From Lyngbya sp. HA4199-MV5 (GTDB lineage: Bacteria; Cyanobacteriota; Cyanobacteriia; Leptolyngbyales; Leptolyngbyaceae): DNA of 58,745 nt. The stretch is from positions 1 through 58,745 of the forward strand of contig JAHHHL010000043.1 of the NCBI GenBank assembly GCA_019359375.1. The letters run 5' to 3'. The notes under the pieces were generated by a model that worked only from the letters and a program-made list of their open reading frames with translations, was not told the origin of the DNA and did no database searches. Of the stretch, positions 240 through 58,070 are shown piece after piece. Every line of letters begins with the position of its first letter. Position 1 is the stretch's first letter. A program made the translations under genes and the position numbers.

Positions 240-1367
240 ATGAAGCACGTATTCTCTTTGCGGTTGGTTGGAATCGGTCTACTGCTAGCTTTGCCTGTTG
301 GAGTTGGGTGGTGGGCAGTCGATATGCTGCGCTTTCAGCAATTGGCTGGTTGTCAAGCGAGTGCAGCAACAGAAACAGTGGAGGAGGATGCGGTCGCCGC
401 GAGCTTTTACTGTGCCCAGGTCAGTGCGAGTCAGCAAACGATCGACGGTCTATCAGAAGCCATTCGTCTGGCGCGTCTGGTACCTGCTGATCATCCCTTA
501 GCCGCTCAGGGCGATCGCCTGATTGAACAGTCATCTCAAAAACTACTGGAGTTGGCTGAGACCTCTTTTCAGAGCGGCAATCTTGAAGAGGCGATTGGGA
601 TAGCGCGTCGAATTCCAGTGACGACCGGAGCCTACAAAACCGCCGATGAGCGGATTGAATCATGGCAGTCAGCGTGGGACGATGCCCAAACAATTTACAG
701 CGATGCCCAAGCGTCGGCTGAGCGTGATCAGTGGGATCAAGCCTTTGAGAAAGCGAGAGAGTTGCGGCAGCTAAGCAACCGCTATTGGAACAGCGATCGC
801 TACCAGGAGTTAGTGCAGAAGATCCAGGAAGCCAAAGAAGGGAAAGCAGCTCAGGCAAAAGCAGAACGTGAGCGCCAGAAAGACTCGGCGGCAAAATACA
901 CAGCTCAACCCGATCTGGTATCGAATTGGCAACAAGATCAAGCACGCGAGGCAGCCGCGAACCTCGATCGTGCTCGCAAGCTAGCCAGTGCTGGCACAGC
1001 AGAAGGTTTACGTGCAGCGATGGACGCAGCGGGATTGGTGCTTTACGGGACTCCTCGCTACGAAGAAGCGCAGCGATCGGTGGATCGTTGGAATCGTCAA
1101 CTGCAAGAAATGGAAGATCGTCCCTATCTCGCTCGTGCAGCACAACTGGCAAGCAAGGGTGATATGTCATCACTCCAAGCGGCGATCGCAGAAGCCAGCA
1201 ACGTCAGCTTTGGCAGCGCGCTCTACCAAGAAGCGCAGGCTAAGATTGGTCAATGGACTGACGCGATTCAAAAATTACATTCCCAAGCCTATCCTGAACG
1301 GTCTGTTAGAAACCGAATTAGCCCCGCTGATTACGTCATACCACCCGTCAAAACAACTGCTCCGTAA
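240..1367 (+). CDS. Membrane-anchored helical-repeat protein, function unknown
   Basis: I do not recognise a named function. The 375-residue protein starts with a short basic stretch and a hydrophobic segment at about residues 8-29, which is a signal anchor or uncleaved signal peptide. The remainder is hydrophilic, Ala/Gln/Glu-rich and predicted helical. It contains visible internal repeats: residues 241-290 and 295-345 share the pattern ARxLAS...LxAAxxxA...G..xYxEAQ...W, and weaker copies lie near 70-145. This resembles TPR/Sel1-like solenoids in cyanobacterial proteins often labelled 'chromosome segregation ATPase', but no ATPase motif is visible. A long antisense frame over 421-1173 is only a shadow. 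The first MITE copy begins 16 bp after the stop. Confidence 0.8.
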   Translation: MKHVFSLRLVGIGLLLALPVGVGWWAVDMLRFQQLAGCQASAATETVEEDAVAASFYCAQVSASQQTIDGLSEAIRLARLVPADHPLAAQGDRLIEQSSQKLLELAETSFQSGNLEEAIGIARRIPVTTGAYKTADERIESWQSAWDDAQTIYSDAQASAERDQWDQAFEKARELRQLSNRYWNSDRYQELVQKIQEAKEGKAAQAKAERERQKDSAAKYTAQPDLVSNWQQDQAREAAANLDRARKLASAGTAEGLRAAMDAAGLVLYGTPRYEEAQRSVDRWNRQLQEMEDRPYLARAAQLASKGDMSSLQAAIAEASNVSFGSALYQEAQAKIGQWTDAIQKLHSQAYPERSVRNRISPADYVIPPVKTTAP

Positions 1368-1382
1368 AGCGATCGTTTAACG

Positions 1383-1514
1383 CTAGGGGCTGTCATCAAT
1401 GACGGCTACACATTACTTGCAGCAAAGGTTCCAGCCCCTAGCCTTGTATGCCAAGACAGGCGCGATCATGCCGATACCGCAAGATTTTTGAGCTGAGTTG
1501 ATGACGCGCCCTAG
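1383..1514 (-). repeat. MITE-like element, copy 1 of 6
   Basis: This is a 132-bp non-coding element bounded by CTAG. Its ends are imperfect inverted repeats, CTAGGGGCTGTCATCAAT on the left and TTGATGACGCGCCCTAG on the right. An internal CCAGCCCCTAG echoes the end sequence. It lies in the opposite orientation to copies 2, 3 and 5. It fills the gap between the 3' end of the gene on its left and the 3' end of the aminotransferase gene on its right, so it may also act as a bidirectional hairpin. Confidence 0.85.
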
Positions 1515-1542: not shown

Positions 1543-2697
1543 TTACGCTGCGGCAAAGACGTTAGCGGCGGCGGCGACACCTGCTCCAGGGGTAAAGCTT
1601 TCGGAACCAAGTTCTTGCAAGGTTGCTTCTAAGGCACCGATCGCGGTCAAAATGTCTCGATCGCTGACAAAACCCAGATGCCCAATGCGGAAGATCTTGC
1701 CTTTGAGGTGATCTTGCCCGCCTGCGAGGATAATGTCGTACCGCTTTTTCATCACGGCGCGAATTTGCTCAGCATCAATGCGATCGGGGATCACAGACGT
1801 AATCGCTGGACTCGCTGACTGATCAGGTGCCAGTAAAGGCAAGCCCAGGGCTTTCACCGCAGCGCGAGTGGCACTTGTCAAACGCTGATGGCGAGCAAAG
1901 ATGTTTTCTAGCCCTTCTGCCTGCATCATACGAAGGGCAACCTGCAAAGCAAAAAACATATTAACGGGTGGTGTAAAGGGTGTGGTGTTCTTTGCCGCAT
2001 CTTTACGATATTTGCCTAAATCCAGGTAGTAGCGGGGTAGTTTTGCCGTTTTGTATGCTTCCCACGCTCTCGCATTGACGGTCACAAAGCCCAAGCCTGG
2101 TGGCACCATATAACCTTTTTGCGACCCAGAGGCAACAACATCCAATCCCCATGCATCAACGGGTACATTGTAAGAACCCAAACTGGTTACAGTATCCACA
2201 ATGATGAGCGCTTCACCATGCGCTTTGACATGACGGTTAATGGTTTCCAGATCGTTCAGCACACCCGTAGACGTTTCGCTATGGGTGACGATGACGGCTT
2301 TAATGGTTTTCTGGGTGTCTCCTTCTAGTGCCTCCCGAAATTTCTCTGCATCAAGCGCCTGCCCCCACTCTGCCGTAATGGGTGAAACGTTCAGACCATA
2401 GGCTTGGGCAACTTCGACCCAGCGTTCACCAAATTTGCCATTGCTGCCAACCAGCACTCGATCGCCTGGACTCAAAAAGTTAATGATGGCTGCTTCGACA
2501 GCACCTGTGCCGCTAACCGTGAGGCTCAGTACGTCATTCTGGGTTTGGTGCAGCCATTTCAACCCATCCGTGACTTCTGCCATGATTTTGGAAAAGTCGC
2601 CGCTGCGATGCCCGATCGGGTGCTTCGCCATCGCGAGTAAAACCTGTTCCGGTACCGGGGTTGGTCCCGGAATCATCAGCATCAACTTGTCGTCCAT
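1543..2697 (-). CDS. Alanine--glyoxylate / serine-type aminotransferase (class V, PLP)
   Basis: This is a 384-residue fold-type I PLP enzyme of the serine-pyruvate/alanine-glyoxylate aminotransferase family. It should transfer an amino group to glyoxylate or a similar acceptor in photorespiratory 2-phosphoglycolate metabolism. Supporting features are the N-terminal IPGPTPVPE and HRSGDF motifs, the SGTGAVEAA phosphate-binding loop, D168 in the VDTVTSLG segment, and the PLP lysine K194 in SGSQKGY. Older cyanobacterial annotations call the same family 'soluble hydrogenase 42 kDa subunit', but no hydrogenase feature is visible. I chose the start at 2697 (MDDKLMLMIPG), where family homology begins; the open frame runs 44 codons further upstream without looking conserved. 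Confidence 0.9.
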   Translation of the reverse strand: MDDKLMLMIPGPTPVPEQVLLAMAKHPIGHRSGDFSKIMAEVTDGLKWLHQTQNDVLSLTVSGTGAVEAAIINFLSPGDRVLVGSNGKFGERWVEVAQAYGLNVSPITAEWGQALDAEKFREALEGDTQKTIKAVIVTHSETSTGVLNDLETINRHVKAHGEALIIVDTVTSLGSYNVPVDAWGLDVVASGSQKGYMVPPGLGFVTVNARAWEAYKTAKLPRYYLDLGKYRKDAAKNTTPFTPPVNMFFALQVALRMMQAEGLENIFARHQRLTSATRAAVKALGLPLLAPDQSASPAITSVIPDRIDAEQIRAVMKKRYDIILAGGQDHLKGKIFRIGHLGFVSDRDILTAIGALEATLQELGSESFTPGAGVAAAANVFAAA

Positions 2698-2993
2698 GAA
2701 TGTGCCCTGAGAGTCGAGATCACCGCCCTTATTGACGGCACTTTCCAGGATGACACAATTTCTAACCTTTAAGCGAATCCTTGCAGTGGCTTCTGGATGT
2801 AAACCATTGAAAAACCAGCCTCTCGTCAATGGGCTTCATGGCTTGAAGTGTGTCACCCATTAAAGCTGTTGACAGAAGGTCGCAGTGAATTAGAGAGGTA
2901 AATGCATGACAAAACCGACACATCTTTTAAATTCTTGACTGATAGAGCGAGTAAGGGTGGAAAGAGGTTTTATACTGCTTCAGAGTCAGTGTT

Positions 2994-4651: not shown

Positions 4652-5338
4652 ATGGCTGCACTTAAAGAACCGATCGGGCGATCGCGGCACTACTGGTTAA
4701 CGCTACTCGTGGGTGTATGGTTTCCACTGCTTGTCTTTTCAGTTCTCGCTGTGACGGTGGGCTGGTATGGTGATGGGTTTTTGTGGGAAACCCCTATCTT
4801 GCAGGCGGTACATGCAACAGTGCAGCCTGAATTAGATGAGTTTGCCAGAACGTTAACGAAATTTGGCGTGTTTTGGGGTGTCTTTCCAGTCGCAACGATC
4901 ACTGGGTTGGTACTGCTTTATCAACAGCGATGGCGATCGCTGCTTTATCTAGCAATCACGCTTTTCAGCAACATCGTGATTAATCGCACTGCCAAGCTGT
5001 TTTTTCATCGAGTGCGCCCTCATTTATGGGAAGTTCCCCTCCCAGAACCAGATTATTCTTTTCCCAGTGGTCATGCCATGTCAAGTATGACGCTGGTTGC
5101 AGTGGTGGTGGTTTTGACGTGGGGGACTCGCTGGTGTGGATGGGTGTTGGTAAGCGGCAGTATCTTTGTGGTAGCGATCGCCTGGACGCGCCTGTATTTG
5201 GGCGTTCACTACCCCAGTGACATTTTGGCTGGCTGGATGCTCTCTCTAGCATGGGCGATCGCTGCTAGCCTACTCGTTCAACCAAACCAACCATTTGTTG
5301 ACCGTTCAGTGGAAAGCAACAGCCCAGATTTTTCCTAG
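4652..5338 (+). CDS. PAP2-family membrane phosphatase
   Basis: This 228-residue protein has about six transmembrane segments. It carries all three motifs of the phosphatidic acid phosphatase type 2 superfamily: KLFFHRVRP (KX6RP), SFPSGHAMSS (PSGH) and TRLYLGVHYPSDILAGW (RX5HX3D). The PSGH and second histidines form the catalytic pair. Such enzymes dephosphorylate phosphatidate, undecaprenyl diphosphate or similar lipid phosphates at the membrane face. Which substrate is used here is not decidable. The gene stands alone, about 220 bp after the TauE gene; that gap contains only GGATGAG-like repeat debris. Confidence 0.88.
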   Translation: MAALKEPIGRSRHYWLTLLVGVWFPLLVFSVLAVTVGWYGDGFLWETPILQAVHATVQPELDEFARTLTKFGVFWGVFPVATITGLVLLYQQRWRSLLYLAITLFSNIVINRTAKLFFHRVRPHLWEVPLPEPDYSFPSGHAMSSMTLVAVVVVLTWGTRWCGWVLVSGSIFVVAIAWTRLYLGVHYPSDILAGWMLSLAWAIAASLLVQPNQPFVDRSVESNSPDFS

Positions 5339-9596: not shown

Positions 9597-9728
9597 CTAG
9601 GGCGTGTCATCAATTCAGCCCCGAAACCTTGCGGTATTTGCATAACCACGCCCGCACCAACACACAAGACTAAGGGCTGAGACACCTGCTAAAAATGATG
9701 TGTAGTCATAATTGATGACAGCCCCTAG
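9597..9728 (+). repeat. MITE-like element, copy 2 of 6
   Basis: A 132-bp CTAG-bounded copy with left end CTAGGGCGTGTCATCAATT and right end AATTGATGACAGCCCCTAG. Its internal region GAAACCTTGCGGTAT...CTAAGGGCTG aligns with the other copies but is more diverged. It lies 78 bp beyond the 3' end of the glycosyltransferase gene. Confidence 0.85.
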
Positions 9729-12683: not shown

Positions 12684-12771
12684 AGCAAACGCTCAGCGGC
12701 AGCATTGCTTAAGCACCTGCGTGAGTATGACAAGGTGTTGACCAAAGTGCATTACTTGATGGAGAATTTTC

Positions 12772-13611
12772 TTGCCAAACTCAAGCAATACCGAGCGATT
12801 GTCACACCGATCGCGTCCCCAACCCCCTTCATGGCTACACTGGCTAGACACCTGCTCCAGCACAAACACCTGGGCGATCGAGCATCTCGCTACATTACAG
12901 CATGGTGATGTGGTCTTTACACCACGGCAAACGGCTGGACGTGGTCAGCATGGGCGTATCTGGCATTCCCCCAAAGGCGTGCTGACGGCGAGTTTTATCT
13001 TAGAAAACATTCCCGTTGTGCAGTTGCCTGCTGTTAGTTTGGGCGCGGGATTAGCGGTCATTGATGCAGTTGAAGCGTTGCTACCACCCTTGCAAGGCAT
13101 GTTGCAACTGAAGTGGTCAAACGATGTATTGTTCAAGGGTCGCAAGCTAGCAGGAATCTTGTGTGAAGCGTCCGCTAACCGCAAGATGGGACGCGTTGTA
13201 GTGGGTATTGGGCTAAATTGCCATGTGGACTTTGAGCAGGCGGGATTGACCGATCGCGCGATCGGTCAGGCAATCAGTTTGCATCACGTCTCGACTACTG
13301 TGCCCGATACTCTTTTGCTGATAGAGCGCTTACGTCATCATTTGCTTCATATTGCAGGCTTGCTTCAAGCAGCGCAACCGGATTCGTTGAGCCACTCTGG
13401 TTTAAAGGCATTCCTACCCGCACTCCGTCGTCGAGATGCCTTACAGGGGCAAGACATTATCGTTGTTTTGCAGGGCGAACACATTGCAGGAAAAGCAGTC
13501 GGCATCAGCGATCGTGGGTATCTCTTATTGCAGCTTCCTGATAGTGAAGTGCGATCGTTCGTGTCAGGACACATTCTTTGGCAGCAGCGGGAATGTCGAT
13601 CGTCAGATTGA
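12772..13611 (+). CDS. birA: Biotin--[acetyl-CoA-carboxylase] ligase
   Basis: A 279-residue biotin protein ligase that forms biotinyl-AMP and biotinylates the AccB carrier protein. Diagnostic motifs are LDTCSSTNTWA, the biotin-binding loop GRGQHGRIWHSPKG, KWSNDVLFKGRKLAGIL with its catalytic lysine, and VGIGLNCH. There is no N-terminal helix-turn-helix, so it is a monofunctional ligase rather than a repressor. The start is probably TTG at 12772, preceded by GGAGAA at good spacing; no ATG fits before the first conserved motif. The partner subunit gene accD is also in this window but 27 kb away. Confidence 0.88.
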   Translation: MPNSSNTERLSHRSRPQPPSWLHWLDTCSSTNTWAIEHLATLQHGDVVFTPRQTAGRGQHGRIWHSPKGVLTASFILENIPVVQLPAVSLGAGLAVIDAVEALLPPLQGMLQLKWSNDVLFKGRKLAGILCEASANRKMGRVVVGIGLNCHVDFEQAGLTDRAIGQAISLHHVSTTVPDTLLLIERLRHHLLHIAGLLQAAQPDSLSHSGLKAFLPALRRRDALQGQDIIVVLQGEHIAGKAVGISDRGYLLLQLPDSEVRSFVSGHILWQQRECRSSD

Positions 13612-21055: not shown

Positions 21056-21329
21056 CTGAACTCGGTAAACTGAAGCGCTTTGTTTAAGGACGATCGCGCT
21101 GGTTCCTCAGCATTTTCCCTGATGTCGTACTGTCAGTGTTGATCATGACTGCACACGCGTATTTATCTTGAGCCGCTTTAGACAGAAGACAAGATGAGTT
21201 CTCAGTCTAGTGAATTGGGTTTAGAGTATCGGGTGTAGGGTATAGGGCTGATCGACTGACAAAAGTCTTGAAAGGCTGGTCGCTTCGTTGCTCACCCGCC
21301 CGTGATTCAAATCCGGGCTAAGGGTGCGA

Positions 21330-21413
21330 AACCCGTTAAAACGGGTTGTAAGACGCTCCTAGTCCTCTTGAGAGGACTTCCTGCCATTAGCCCGCACTTT
21401 AGTGCAGGGCGGG
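21330..21413. repeat. Three-hairpin structured repeat element
   Basis: Three consecutive stems occur: AACCCGTTAAAACGGGTT at 21330-21347, AGTCCTCTTGAGAGGACT at 21361-21378, and CCCGCACTTTAGTGCAGGGC starting at 21391. Sequence like this is, to my memory, scattered between genes of many cyanobacteria. It could be a mobile-element end or a structured RNA. No transposase or TnpB gene adjoins it here. Confidence 0.55.
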
Positions 21414-21542
21414 TTCAAGTACTCGCTCAAAGATTTGTCAGTCAACCAGGGGTACAGGGTGTGGTGAATGCACATGGAAAAACGCTGAAAGGCGATGCAG
21501 CAACCGCATCCAACGGCAACTCCTAGCCCACGATCAAGCGTT

Positions 21543-29952: not shown

Positions 29953-30082
29953 CTAGGGCGCGTCATCAATTAGCCCCAAAATCTTGCAGTATCAGCATTG
30001 TCGCGCCCGCCCAAACATACAAGCTAGGGGCTGGAACCCTTGCTTCAAGTCATGTGCAGTCGTAATTGATGACAGCCCCTAG
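29953..30082 (+). repeat. MITE-like element, copy 3 of 6, overlapping a stop codon
   Basis: A 130-bp copy with left end CTAGGGCGCGTCATCAATTA and right end TAATTGATGACAGCCCCTAG; this copy best shows the 20-bp imperfect terminal inverted repeats. Its terminal CTAG (30079-30082) contains the TAG stop codon of the ComFB-like gene on the minus strand. Confidence 0.88.
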
Positions 30083-37299: not shown

Positions 37300-37430
37300 C
37301 TAGGGGCTGTCATCAATGACTACTACACGTTAGTTGCAGCAATGGTTACAGCCCCTAGCATCATATGTTGGGGCGGGCGCGATCATGCTGATACCGCAGG
37401 GTTTTGAAGCTAATTGATAACACGTATCAG
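37300..37430 (-). repeat. MITE-like element, copy 4 of 6
   Basis: A 131-bp copy in the orientation of copy 1. The left end CTAGGGGCTGTCATCAAT is intact, while the right end has decayed to AATTGATAACACGTATCAG. It lies between the IS630 remnant and the petJ 3' end. Confidence 0.82.
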
Positions 37431-51665: not shown

Positions 51666-51796
51666 CTAGGGAGTGTCATCAATTAGCTCCGAAACCTTGC
51701 AATATCAGCAGTGTCACGCCCGTCCCCACACACCAGGCTAGGGGCTGGAACCCTTGCTGCAAGGAATGTGTAGTACTAATTGATGACAGCCCATAG
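51666..51796 (+). repeat. MITE-like element, copy 5 of 6
   Basis: A 131-bp copy with left end CTAGGGAGTGTCATCAATTA and right end CTAATTGATGACAGCCCATAG, plus the internal CTAGGGGCTGGAACCCTTGC. It lies 113 bp upstream of the prohibitin start, the only copy clearly in a 5' region. Confidence 0.86.
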
Positions 51797-55063: not shown

Positions 55064-55981
55064 TCAGGGAAAGCCATCCGTAGCTGAAGGGTTTACTGCT
55101 CCAGTGACAAGATTTGCCAGCGCCGCACCGGGATCGGGTTGGCGCATCAGCGCTTCGCCCACCAGCACTGCACTTGCACCAGCCGTTGAAACAACCTGTA
55201 AGTCGTCAGGTGTGTACAAACCAGATTCACTCACAACCAGGATGTCGCGCGATCGAACCTGTTCTCGACGATCGTCCAGCAAGCGTTGCGTGGTCTGCAA
55301 ATCAACCGAAAAATCCTCTAAGTTGCGGTTGTTGATGCCAATGAGGTTGACCCCATCCAGCGCCAGCACGCGATCGAGTTCCGCCAGAGTATGCACTTCC
55401 ACCAACGCCGCCATGCCGAGCGTAGACGCAATCTTGAGAAAATACTGGAGGTCTTTATCCGACAAAATCGCCGCAATCAGCAGCACGGCATCGGCACCAT
55501 TCACCCGTGCCAAGTACATTTGATAGGGGTAAATGACAAATTCTTTGCACAGCAGCGGCAACTCAGTCACCGCACGGATCTGCGCAAGGTACTCAAAGCT
55601 ACCTTGAAAGAATTTCTGATCCGTTAAGACCGAAAGGCAAGTCGCCCCACCTTGTTCGTAAGAGTGGGCGATCGCCACGGGATCAAAATCTTCCCGAATC
55701 ACGCCCTTGCTAGGAGACGCTTTTTTGACTTCAGCAATGACGGCTGGACGAGTCTTGCCATGCTGGAGTGCCTGCAAGAACGATCGAGGAGGAGGCAGAT
55801 CTTTGACTTGTTTTTGCAGCTCCAGTAGAGGCACGCGATCGCGCAGTTGAGCCACTTCAGCCTCTTTCTGCCAGACAATTTCCTCCAAAATATGACGAGG
55901 AGCCGCATCAGGAACTTTTACCTGATAGCGCAATTCCTGCACAGAAACCGCAGGATTCGGTGGGCGACGACGGATCTGCAT
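55064..55981 (-). CDS. trpC: Indole-3-glycerol-phosphate synthase
   Basis: A 305-residue TIM-barrel enzyme of tryptophan synthesis that closes the indole ring of carboxyphenylaminodeoxyribulose phosphate. Active-site motifs are [71 protein letters not shown] and the phosphate loop [10 protein letters not shown]. The N-terminal 35-residue extension ([20 protein letters not shown]) is typical of cyanobacterial TrpC. It lies 336 bp downstream of lpdA on the same strand. Confidence 0.96.
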
Positions 55982-56135
55982 CGGTTAGCTTGAACGTAAA
56001 GGGAACAGGAGGGTCGATCGAAACAATGCATGACCATTGCTCGATGCCAAGAATAGATAATGCTCTTGATAGCGTAACCTAAGTCTGGAAAGGTACGGGG
56101 AGAGAACGTATCAAAACATACGAAATTAGTGTGAT

Positions 56136-57923: not shown

Positions 57924-58030
57924 CTAGGGGCTGTCATCAATTACTACTACACATAAGTTGCAGCAAGGGTTCCAGCCCCTAGCCTGATGTGTTGGAACAA
58001 GTGCTTTGTGGCGGTATCAGCGTTCGGGAT
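57924..58030 (-). repeat. MITE-like element, copy 6 of 6, rearranged
   Basis: The left half is intact (CTAGGGGCTGTCATCAATTA, then GCAAGGGTTCCAGCCCCTAG). The right half is lost or rearranged: GGCGGTATCAGCGTTCGGG looks like an internal piece in reverse orientation, and no terminal repeat closes the element. Confidence 0.7.
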
Positions 58031-58036
58031 AGCCAA

Positions 58037-58070
58037 AGACCGCCGATTTCTTCAAAGAAATCGGCGGTCT
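58037..58070 (-). terminator. Long perfect hairpin, likely terminator of the downstream minus-strand gene
   Basis: AGACCGCCGATTTCTT and AAGAAATCGGCGGTCT form a 16-bp perfect stem around CA. It lies 28 bp beyond the stop of the 143-residue protein gene. GACCGCC-type palindromes of this kind recur in cyanobacterial genomes. Confidence 0.65.

Follow-up and report, generated by a model that had tools for sequence, protein, structure and literature searches.

Copies of the repeat in the window and in its genome

The window, that is, the whole stretch of 58,745 nucleotides analysed here, holds six copies of a short repeat, all of which were recovered at the positions listed in an earlier note on this DNA. 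Copy 1 (1383-1514, plus strand) is complete at 132 bp and lies between two convergent open reading frames (ORFs), 16 bp past the stop codon of ORF 240-1367 (plus strand) and 28 bp ahead of the stop codon of an aminotransferase-like ORF at 1543-2829 (minus strand). Its left end, CTAGGGGCTG (1383-1392, plus strand), is complementary to an internal inverted copy, CAGCCCCTAG, at 1432-1441 (plus strand). Likewise, its right end, CGCGCCC, located inside the terminal TAG (1505-1511, plus strand), has an internal inverted copy at 1458-1464 (plus strand) that reads AGGCGCG here and GGGCGCG in the consensus. Three further copies are complete, namely copy 2 (9597-9728), copy 3 (29953-30082) and copy 5 (51666-51796), all on the minus strand, with copy 5 showing TAT in place of TAG at its left end. 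In copy 3, the left-end TAG (30079-30081, minus strand) doubles as the stop codon of a comFB-like ORF at 30630-30079 (minus strand). Finally, copy 4 (37300-37430, plus strand) has a decayed right end, and copy 6 (57924-57998, plus strand) is reduced to the left ~75 bp, the right half being lost.

The inverted ends proposed in the earlier note are borne out by the end motif CTAGGGNNNGTCATCAATT, which with up to three mismatches matches the window 10 times vs. 0.39 expected, a count reached in 0 of 100 shuffles. The note was also right that a partial copy of the left end lies inside the element, but overlooked that the right end has one as well (GGGCGCG vs. CGCGCCC). Its statement that the window lacks a transposase with these ends holds for an intact gene; yet at 12708-12809 (plus strand) there is a 34-codon remnant with resemblance to the C-terminal part of an IS5-family (IS427-type) transposase (65% identity, no ends seen).

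Two other features of the window were observed alongside the repeat. Just past the truncated copy 6, a 34-bp near-perfect, terminator-like inverted repeat, AGACCGCCGATTTCTT...AAATCGGCGGTCT (58037-58070), lies downstream of ORF 58562-58098 (minus strand). In addition, a second repeat of ~200 bp (21248-21451; 72-87% identity) has edges that look like inverted ends, CTGACAAAAGTCTT / AAGATTTGTCAG, and among the matches listed is found in many copies in four of six congeners (G001, G002, G005 and G006); it has no Rfam match up to an E-value of 1.

The genome of the window (G000) measures 6.9 Mb, and the end motif TAGGGNNNGTCATCAA, allowing one mismatch, matches its two strands 310 and 311 times vs. 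6 and 3 times for the reversed motif used as control, i.e., 621 vs. 9 matches. Within a sample of 425 kb, consisting of the window and 19 stretches picked for holding matches, 69 ends of the TAGGGNNNGTCATCAA type belong to 38 copies; extrapolated to the whole genome, this gives ~337 copies, or 2.9 per window. This number is more likely under- than overestimated, because the sampled stretches were picked for good ends. The genome-wide search suggested in the earlier note thus points to hundreds of copies, and the high density noted for the window shrinks to a mild excess, as six or more copies would be expected in a window with P = 0.07.

The anatomy of the repeat was determined from 92 distinct copies, comprising 40 from G000, 23 from each of the congeners G002 and G006, and six from other genomes. 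Extended to the model ends, the copies are 128-134 bp long, and 56 of the 92 measure exactly 131 bp. They contain no gene or coding capacity. The two ends are unequal, the left one reading CTAGGGGCTGTCATCAATTA and the right one, read inward, CTAGGGCGYGTCATCAATTA. Mean pairwise identity between copies is 85% in G000, 92% in G002 and 85% in G006, with a median identity to the nearest neighbour of 91%, 95% and 90%, respectively, and two variants, GGGCGCG...CGCGCCC and GGGCGTG...CACGCCC, occur in G000. In two species, a further right half, joined at CCCTAG, directly follows a complete copy (L147:1314-1519 in G002 and L323 on contig C48 of G000). A pair of ends 771 bp apart on contig C2 of G000 was considered as a parent insertion sequence (IS) but is actually a copy of the repeat (L031:832-1602, about 55331-56101 of the contig) split by an IS200-like insertion (Pfam Y1_Tnp, 1.2e-34).

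Spread, empty sites and target

By DNA similarity, the element was found in 8 of 58 genomes, its own included. A covariance model built from 42 copies and applied with E-values up to 1e-4, scoring at most eight matches per genome, detected the element in 51 of the 388 genomes covered from the class (again including its own), which belong to 22 of 160 genera and to nine family codes; the two weakest of these genomes, G157 and G380, are the sole matches of their families. A DNA pattern of the left half was found in at least 77 named stretches, all with cyanobacterial titles among the matches listed, and a similar pattern gave no match in viral contigs. Between congeners, copy number is very different. 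Other MITE families, mostly 130-133 bp long and in one case 165 bp, were observed in G050 (L095-L097) and G013 (L098-L101, L103 and L104), with similar ends, different interiors and no clear internal end copies.

Comparison with congeners showed clearly empty sites for three of the seven copies compared, which answers the check proposed in the earlier note. At copy 3 of the window (29953-30082), the orthologous spacer of G006 holds a single CTAG beside the same gene end. In the stretch L038, the copies at 4723 and 7891 are absent from the homologous place in G006, and the latter also from G001, G003 and G005, with junctions that are not identical to the base. The other four sites (L038:13005 and window copies 1383, 9597 and 37300) are undecidable, as their spacers are not alignable or synteny is kept on one side only. 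G002 also carries the element downstream of the gene that neighbours copy 1383; this looks like an independent insertion because its distance from the stop codon and its left neighbours differ. Copies that differ between sister species in this way could be used as markers.

CTAG bounds both ends of the element, as the earlier note had seen for copies 1-3; what is duplicated, however, is not CTAG but the TA within YTAR. A pattern search of the 388 genomes yielded 23 copies, in nine genomes, with T instead of C on the left. Their right ends were readable in 18 cases and read CCCTAG in ten, CCCTAA in seven and CCCTAC in one, the remaining five being unmatched by the pattern. Since the T on the left has no counterpart on the right, the duplication comprises TA alone within YTAR (mostly CTAR), and the 17 T-flanked copies ending in CCCTA followed by G or A rule out a duplication of 4-bp CTAG or 3-bp CTA. 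In general, C precedes the left TA in 84 of 87 copies, and the right TA is followed by G in 60 and by A in 23 of 83 copies. When both ends carry TA (79 copies), the flanking pair is C..G in 55, C..A in 21 and T..G, T..A and G..G in one each. Among the fetched copies, CTA-element-TAA was thus seen 21 times vs. once for TTA-element-TAG, from which it follows that asymmetric targets are mostly entered in one orientation.

Probable partner elements and internal end copies

A search of 30 related genomes with the end pattern found insertion sequences bearing the ends of the repeat in G047 (L090, 840 bp; L091, 829 bp) and G011 (L076, 852 bp), and a degraded one in G012 (L081). Altogether, full-length IS5-family sequences of 829-858 bp with the same ends are present in four other cyanobacterial genomes, G047, G011, G329 and G205, so that the full insertion sequence which the earlier note asked to look for was found, in genomes other than G000; in G329 and G205, the repeat and the full-length element occur in the same genome. 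Read across its two overlapping frames, the transposase of L076 matches the Pfam families DUF4096 and DDE_Tnp_1 as well as NCBIfam transpos_IS5_3 (NF033580, 6.3e-90). The partner may belong to the IS427 group; as in IS711, there are two overlapping frames and the TA of YTAR is used. Both 858-bp copies in G329 end in CTAGGGCGTGTCATCAATTAAGCC at the 3' side, and one of them begins with CTAGGGGCTGGCATCATTTAG, displaying the same difference between left and right as the repeat, the 5' end of the other having diverged. The congener G003 carries an IS 3' end with a matching terminus at a contig edge. IS5-like matches at the edges of contigs C26 and C29 were considered as partner and rejected, as they do not have these ends.

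A relative of the L076 transposase at an E-value of 1e-15 or better is encoded by 12 of 30 genomes carrying the repeat; at this threshold, none was found in the other 18, including G000, G002 and G006, and G002 and G006 nonetheless hold many copies. The G000 assembly contains no transposase with these ends and only six weak or partial matches, which include the remnant at 12708-12809 of the window and the end of contig C82. In two cases, insertion sequences lie directly at the repeat: at the end of contig C82 of G000, an IS5-type 3' end with another terminus, TAGGGCGTGTTTTAAACCC, sits exactly on the terminal TA of a copy, and in G329, the IS adjoins a copy at a common CTAG. Judged from these sequence comparisons, the repeat is most likely served by IS5-family (IS427-type) ends and would be mobilised in trans by such a transposase.

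Each end of the repeat has its own internal inverted copy ~40 nucleotides inward. Thirty-one elements, taken from 29 genomes and mostly found by a model that already contains the stems, were aligned with MAFFT; much of the interior is variable, and CAGCCCCTAG, the complement of the left end, and GGGCGYG, that of the right end, are kept across the nine family codes. Covariation was compared with 500 shuffles for pairing of each end with its internal copy (local pairing) and for pairing of the two ends. In the 42-row alignment, local pairing shows five pairs changed on both sides (reached in 8 shuffles) and nine cells with double changes (0 shuffles), whereas end-to-end pairing shows a single double change (354 shuffles). 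For the 31 elements, local pairing gives 11 double-change cells (0 shuffles) and two double-change pairs, the latter not above shuffles (122), and end-to-end pairing gives two pairs and two cells (78 shuffles). Given no structure, RNAalifold recovers exactly the 17 local pairs from the 31 elements, and from the 42 rows draws 11 of 16 pairs end to end, which is also how seven of eight single copies and the consensus fold. On a tree of 114 copies made without the stem columns, the best pair changed 8 times on one side and 10 times on the other, with only two independent contrasts on supported branches, averaging 1.8 in the same direction. These were too few for the tree test to serve as pairing evidence, and a mutual-information scan of the 92 copies was set aside as well, as its top pairs reflect subfamilies. 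Taken from the alignments, an end and its own internal copy tend to change together and the two ends do not. A role of hairpins can only be proposed, because the independent events that could be resolved are few and end-to-end folding prevails in single copies; the covariation would also arise if one protein reads both the end and its copy.

As to its origin, the repeat might have arisen simply by internal deletion from a single IS5-family element, with both halves as remains of that IS and the internal copies as functionless leftovers; we consider this unlikely, if the strongest of the rival readings. The ends common to both elements fit such an origin, as does the matching 3' terminus at the contig edge of G003, and one IS copy in G329 has a left-end variant, GGGGCTGG, with CCAGCCC (located by eye) ~50 nucleotides inward. 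Moreover, the left 50-nucleotide interior of the repeat compared with the IS 5' ends beats all 200 permutations; this test is not sharp, though, because cross comparisons also give low values where homology is unexpected (4 of 200 for IS 3' vs. left interior, 7 of 200 for IS 5' vs. right interior). The right interior, by contrast, is no closer to the IS 3' ends than permutations are (94 of 200 as high), which likewise removes the idea that the right half is a relic of the transposase 3' region, suggested by a GGGCGCG at the same distance from the end in the G329 element. Against leftovers also speak the absence of an internal copy near the ends of six full-length insertion sequences searched with 7-8-mers and the maintenance of the internal copies in nine family codes.

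Many copies lie at stop codons, and their pairing potential is conserved, raising the question of an RNA function. Open frames were examined at 226 element ends with enough flank, and at 53 of these, the element is reached by an open frame 60 or more codons long. The frame ends in phase at the TAG of the element itself in 34 cases (17 left, 17 right), the two other frames accounting for 8 and 11. For frames of at least 150 codons, 24 end at this TAG (12 left and 12 right, in 23 copies) vs. two in the others. TAA and TAG both become TAG upon insertion, because the element begins with GGG behind TA. One copy in G217 (L193:1501-1631) has the stop codon of an open frame at each end, the two frames (436 and 192 codons) being convergent. 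When frames of 150 codons are considered, 7 of 36 copies in G000 stand at a stop codon, twice the share among sites outside long frames (9.3 and 9.9%; one-sided P 0.045-0.06); at 100 codons, the excess vanishes (7 of 36 vs. 20.9 and 23.7% of sites). An enrichment of insertions at stop codons was therefore dropped, as it depends on the cut-off, and the pattern is what tolerance of harmless sites predicts.

The repeats might owe their retention mainly to a function as RNA elements at the 3' ends of genes, in stability, processing or termination, with mobility a thing of the past, but this is improbable. Besides the copies at stop codons and the conserved pairing potential, the consensus folds better than shuffles as RNA (z of -3.9 and -2.9 for the two strands). 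However, the equal use of both ends at stop codons (12 left vs. 12 right for the long frames) speaks against a strand-specific RNA role; sites empty in congeners and the very different copy numbers among them also count against this reading; Rfam has no match for copies of the repeat at gathering level, nor for copy 1 up to an E-value of 1, and no T-run was seen behind the stems.

Mobility of the IS200/IS605 type, with single-strand hairpins recognised directly and the internal CTAG as target guide, is hardly credible: the local hairpins, a left stem extending into the flanking CTA and the uneven flanks (C in 84 of 87 on the left vs. G in 60 and A in 23 on the right) would suit it, but such elements are not expected to duplicate a target and here TA stands on both sides vs. 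one YTAR in the empty site, the internal G persists in 21 of the 23 T-flanked copies (A in two), and the ends belong to a DDE-type IS5-family element. The same 21 G and two A do not support the internal CTAG as a base-pairing guide, hinted at by two cases among 114 copies in which both bases of the flanking pair had changed.

A mobile repeat and its known counterparts

The MITE-like reading of the earlier note is supported, as neither of the two results that it named as refuting turned up, and the status of the repeat as a MITE is confirmed by its ends, target, empty sites and copy number, together with the ends shared with transposase-bearing IS5-family elements. In the explanation that we hold with high confidence, it is a 131-bp non-autonomous transposon with IS5-family inverted ends (left GGGGCTGTCATCAATTA, right GGGCGYGTCATCAATTA), for which we infer mobilisation in trans and a role of the internal copies in hairpins or double reading. 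An IS5-family transposase would act in trans on the MITE ends and join the element to a TA target, whereby TA would be duplicated. The end and its internal copy may then pair as a local hairpin, or the same protein may read both, and either could help the element spread. Insertion into the TA of a stop codon would regenerate TAG, leaving the protein unchanged.

It could further be speculated that the MITE is not a recent deletion product but an old, SINE-like lineage whose internal copies are under selection and whose 131-bp body has been kept in several cyanobacterial families through successive IS5-family transposases, with ends that are non-equivalent in target choice. We offer this only tentatively and think it may well be wrong. 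Equally tentative is the accompanying view that each end folds on its own or is read twice, and that several hosts are now without an intact partner. If the internal copies are needed, this would be a non-autonomous bacterial transposon with a cis-acting fold that its autonomous partners lack. The analysis gives a name to a repeat that is very common in many filamentous cyanobacteria and ties it to a transposase family, which aids annotation and typing, and stop-regenerating ends help explain how hundreds of copies may reside in a gene-dense genome with little harm.

A literature search recognised no description of this element, which is weak evidence, most subscription journals and ISfinder being outside its scope. 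Among cyanobacteria, Nezha (cited in PMC10969869) and the 147 MITEs of Anabaena sp. 90 (PMC3542288) are alike by description as short, gene-less and mostly intergenic repeats with inverted ends, those of Anabaena sp. 90 having ends said in that account to be unlike any IS of the genome. MITEAba12, as far as its cited description goes, shares a constant length (111-114 bp), the ends of a co-resident IS and an inferred mobilisation in trans, and differs in its 9-bp duplications, another IS, weak secondary structure and restriction to one bacterial family (PMC6382973). The pneumococcal RUP and BOX elements resemble the repeat as high-copy, MITE-like sequences with secondary structure, ends like those of a resident IS and target duplications. 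Their two ends are said to hybridise to each other in the account consulted, whereas here covariation supports pairing of each end with its own internal copy (PMC3049150). A published parallel is IS711 (IS6501), described as an 842-bp element with 20-bp imperfect inverted repeats and two overlapping frames, which duplicates the TA of YTAR and has a reported preference for short palindromic repeats, Bru-RS (PMC2266754). Its host belongs to another bacterial phylum, and Bru-RS are not described there as carrying internal end copies (PMC2266754). In the genomes analysed here, two IS copies, on contig C82 of G000 and in G329, adjoin MITE ends at a shared TA.
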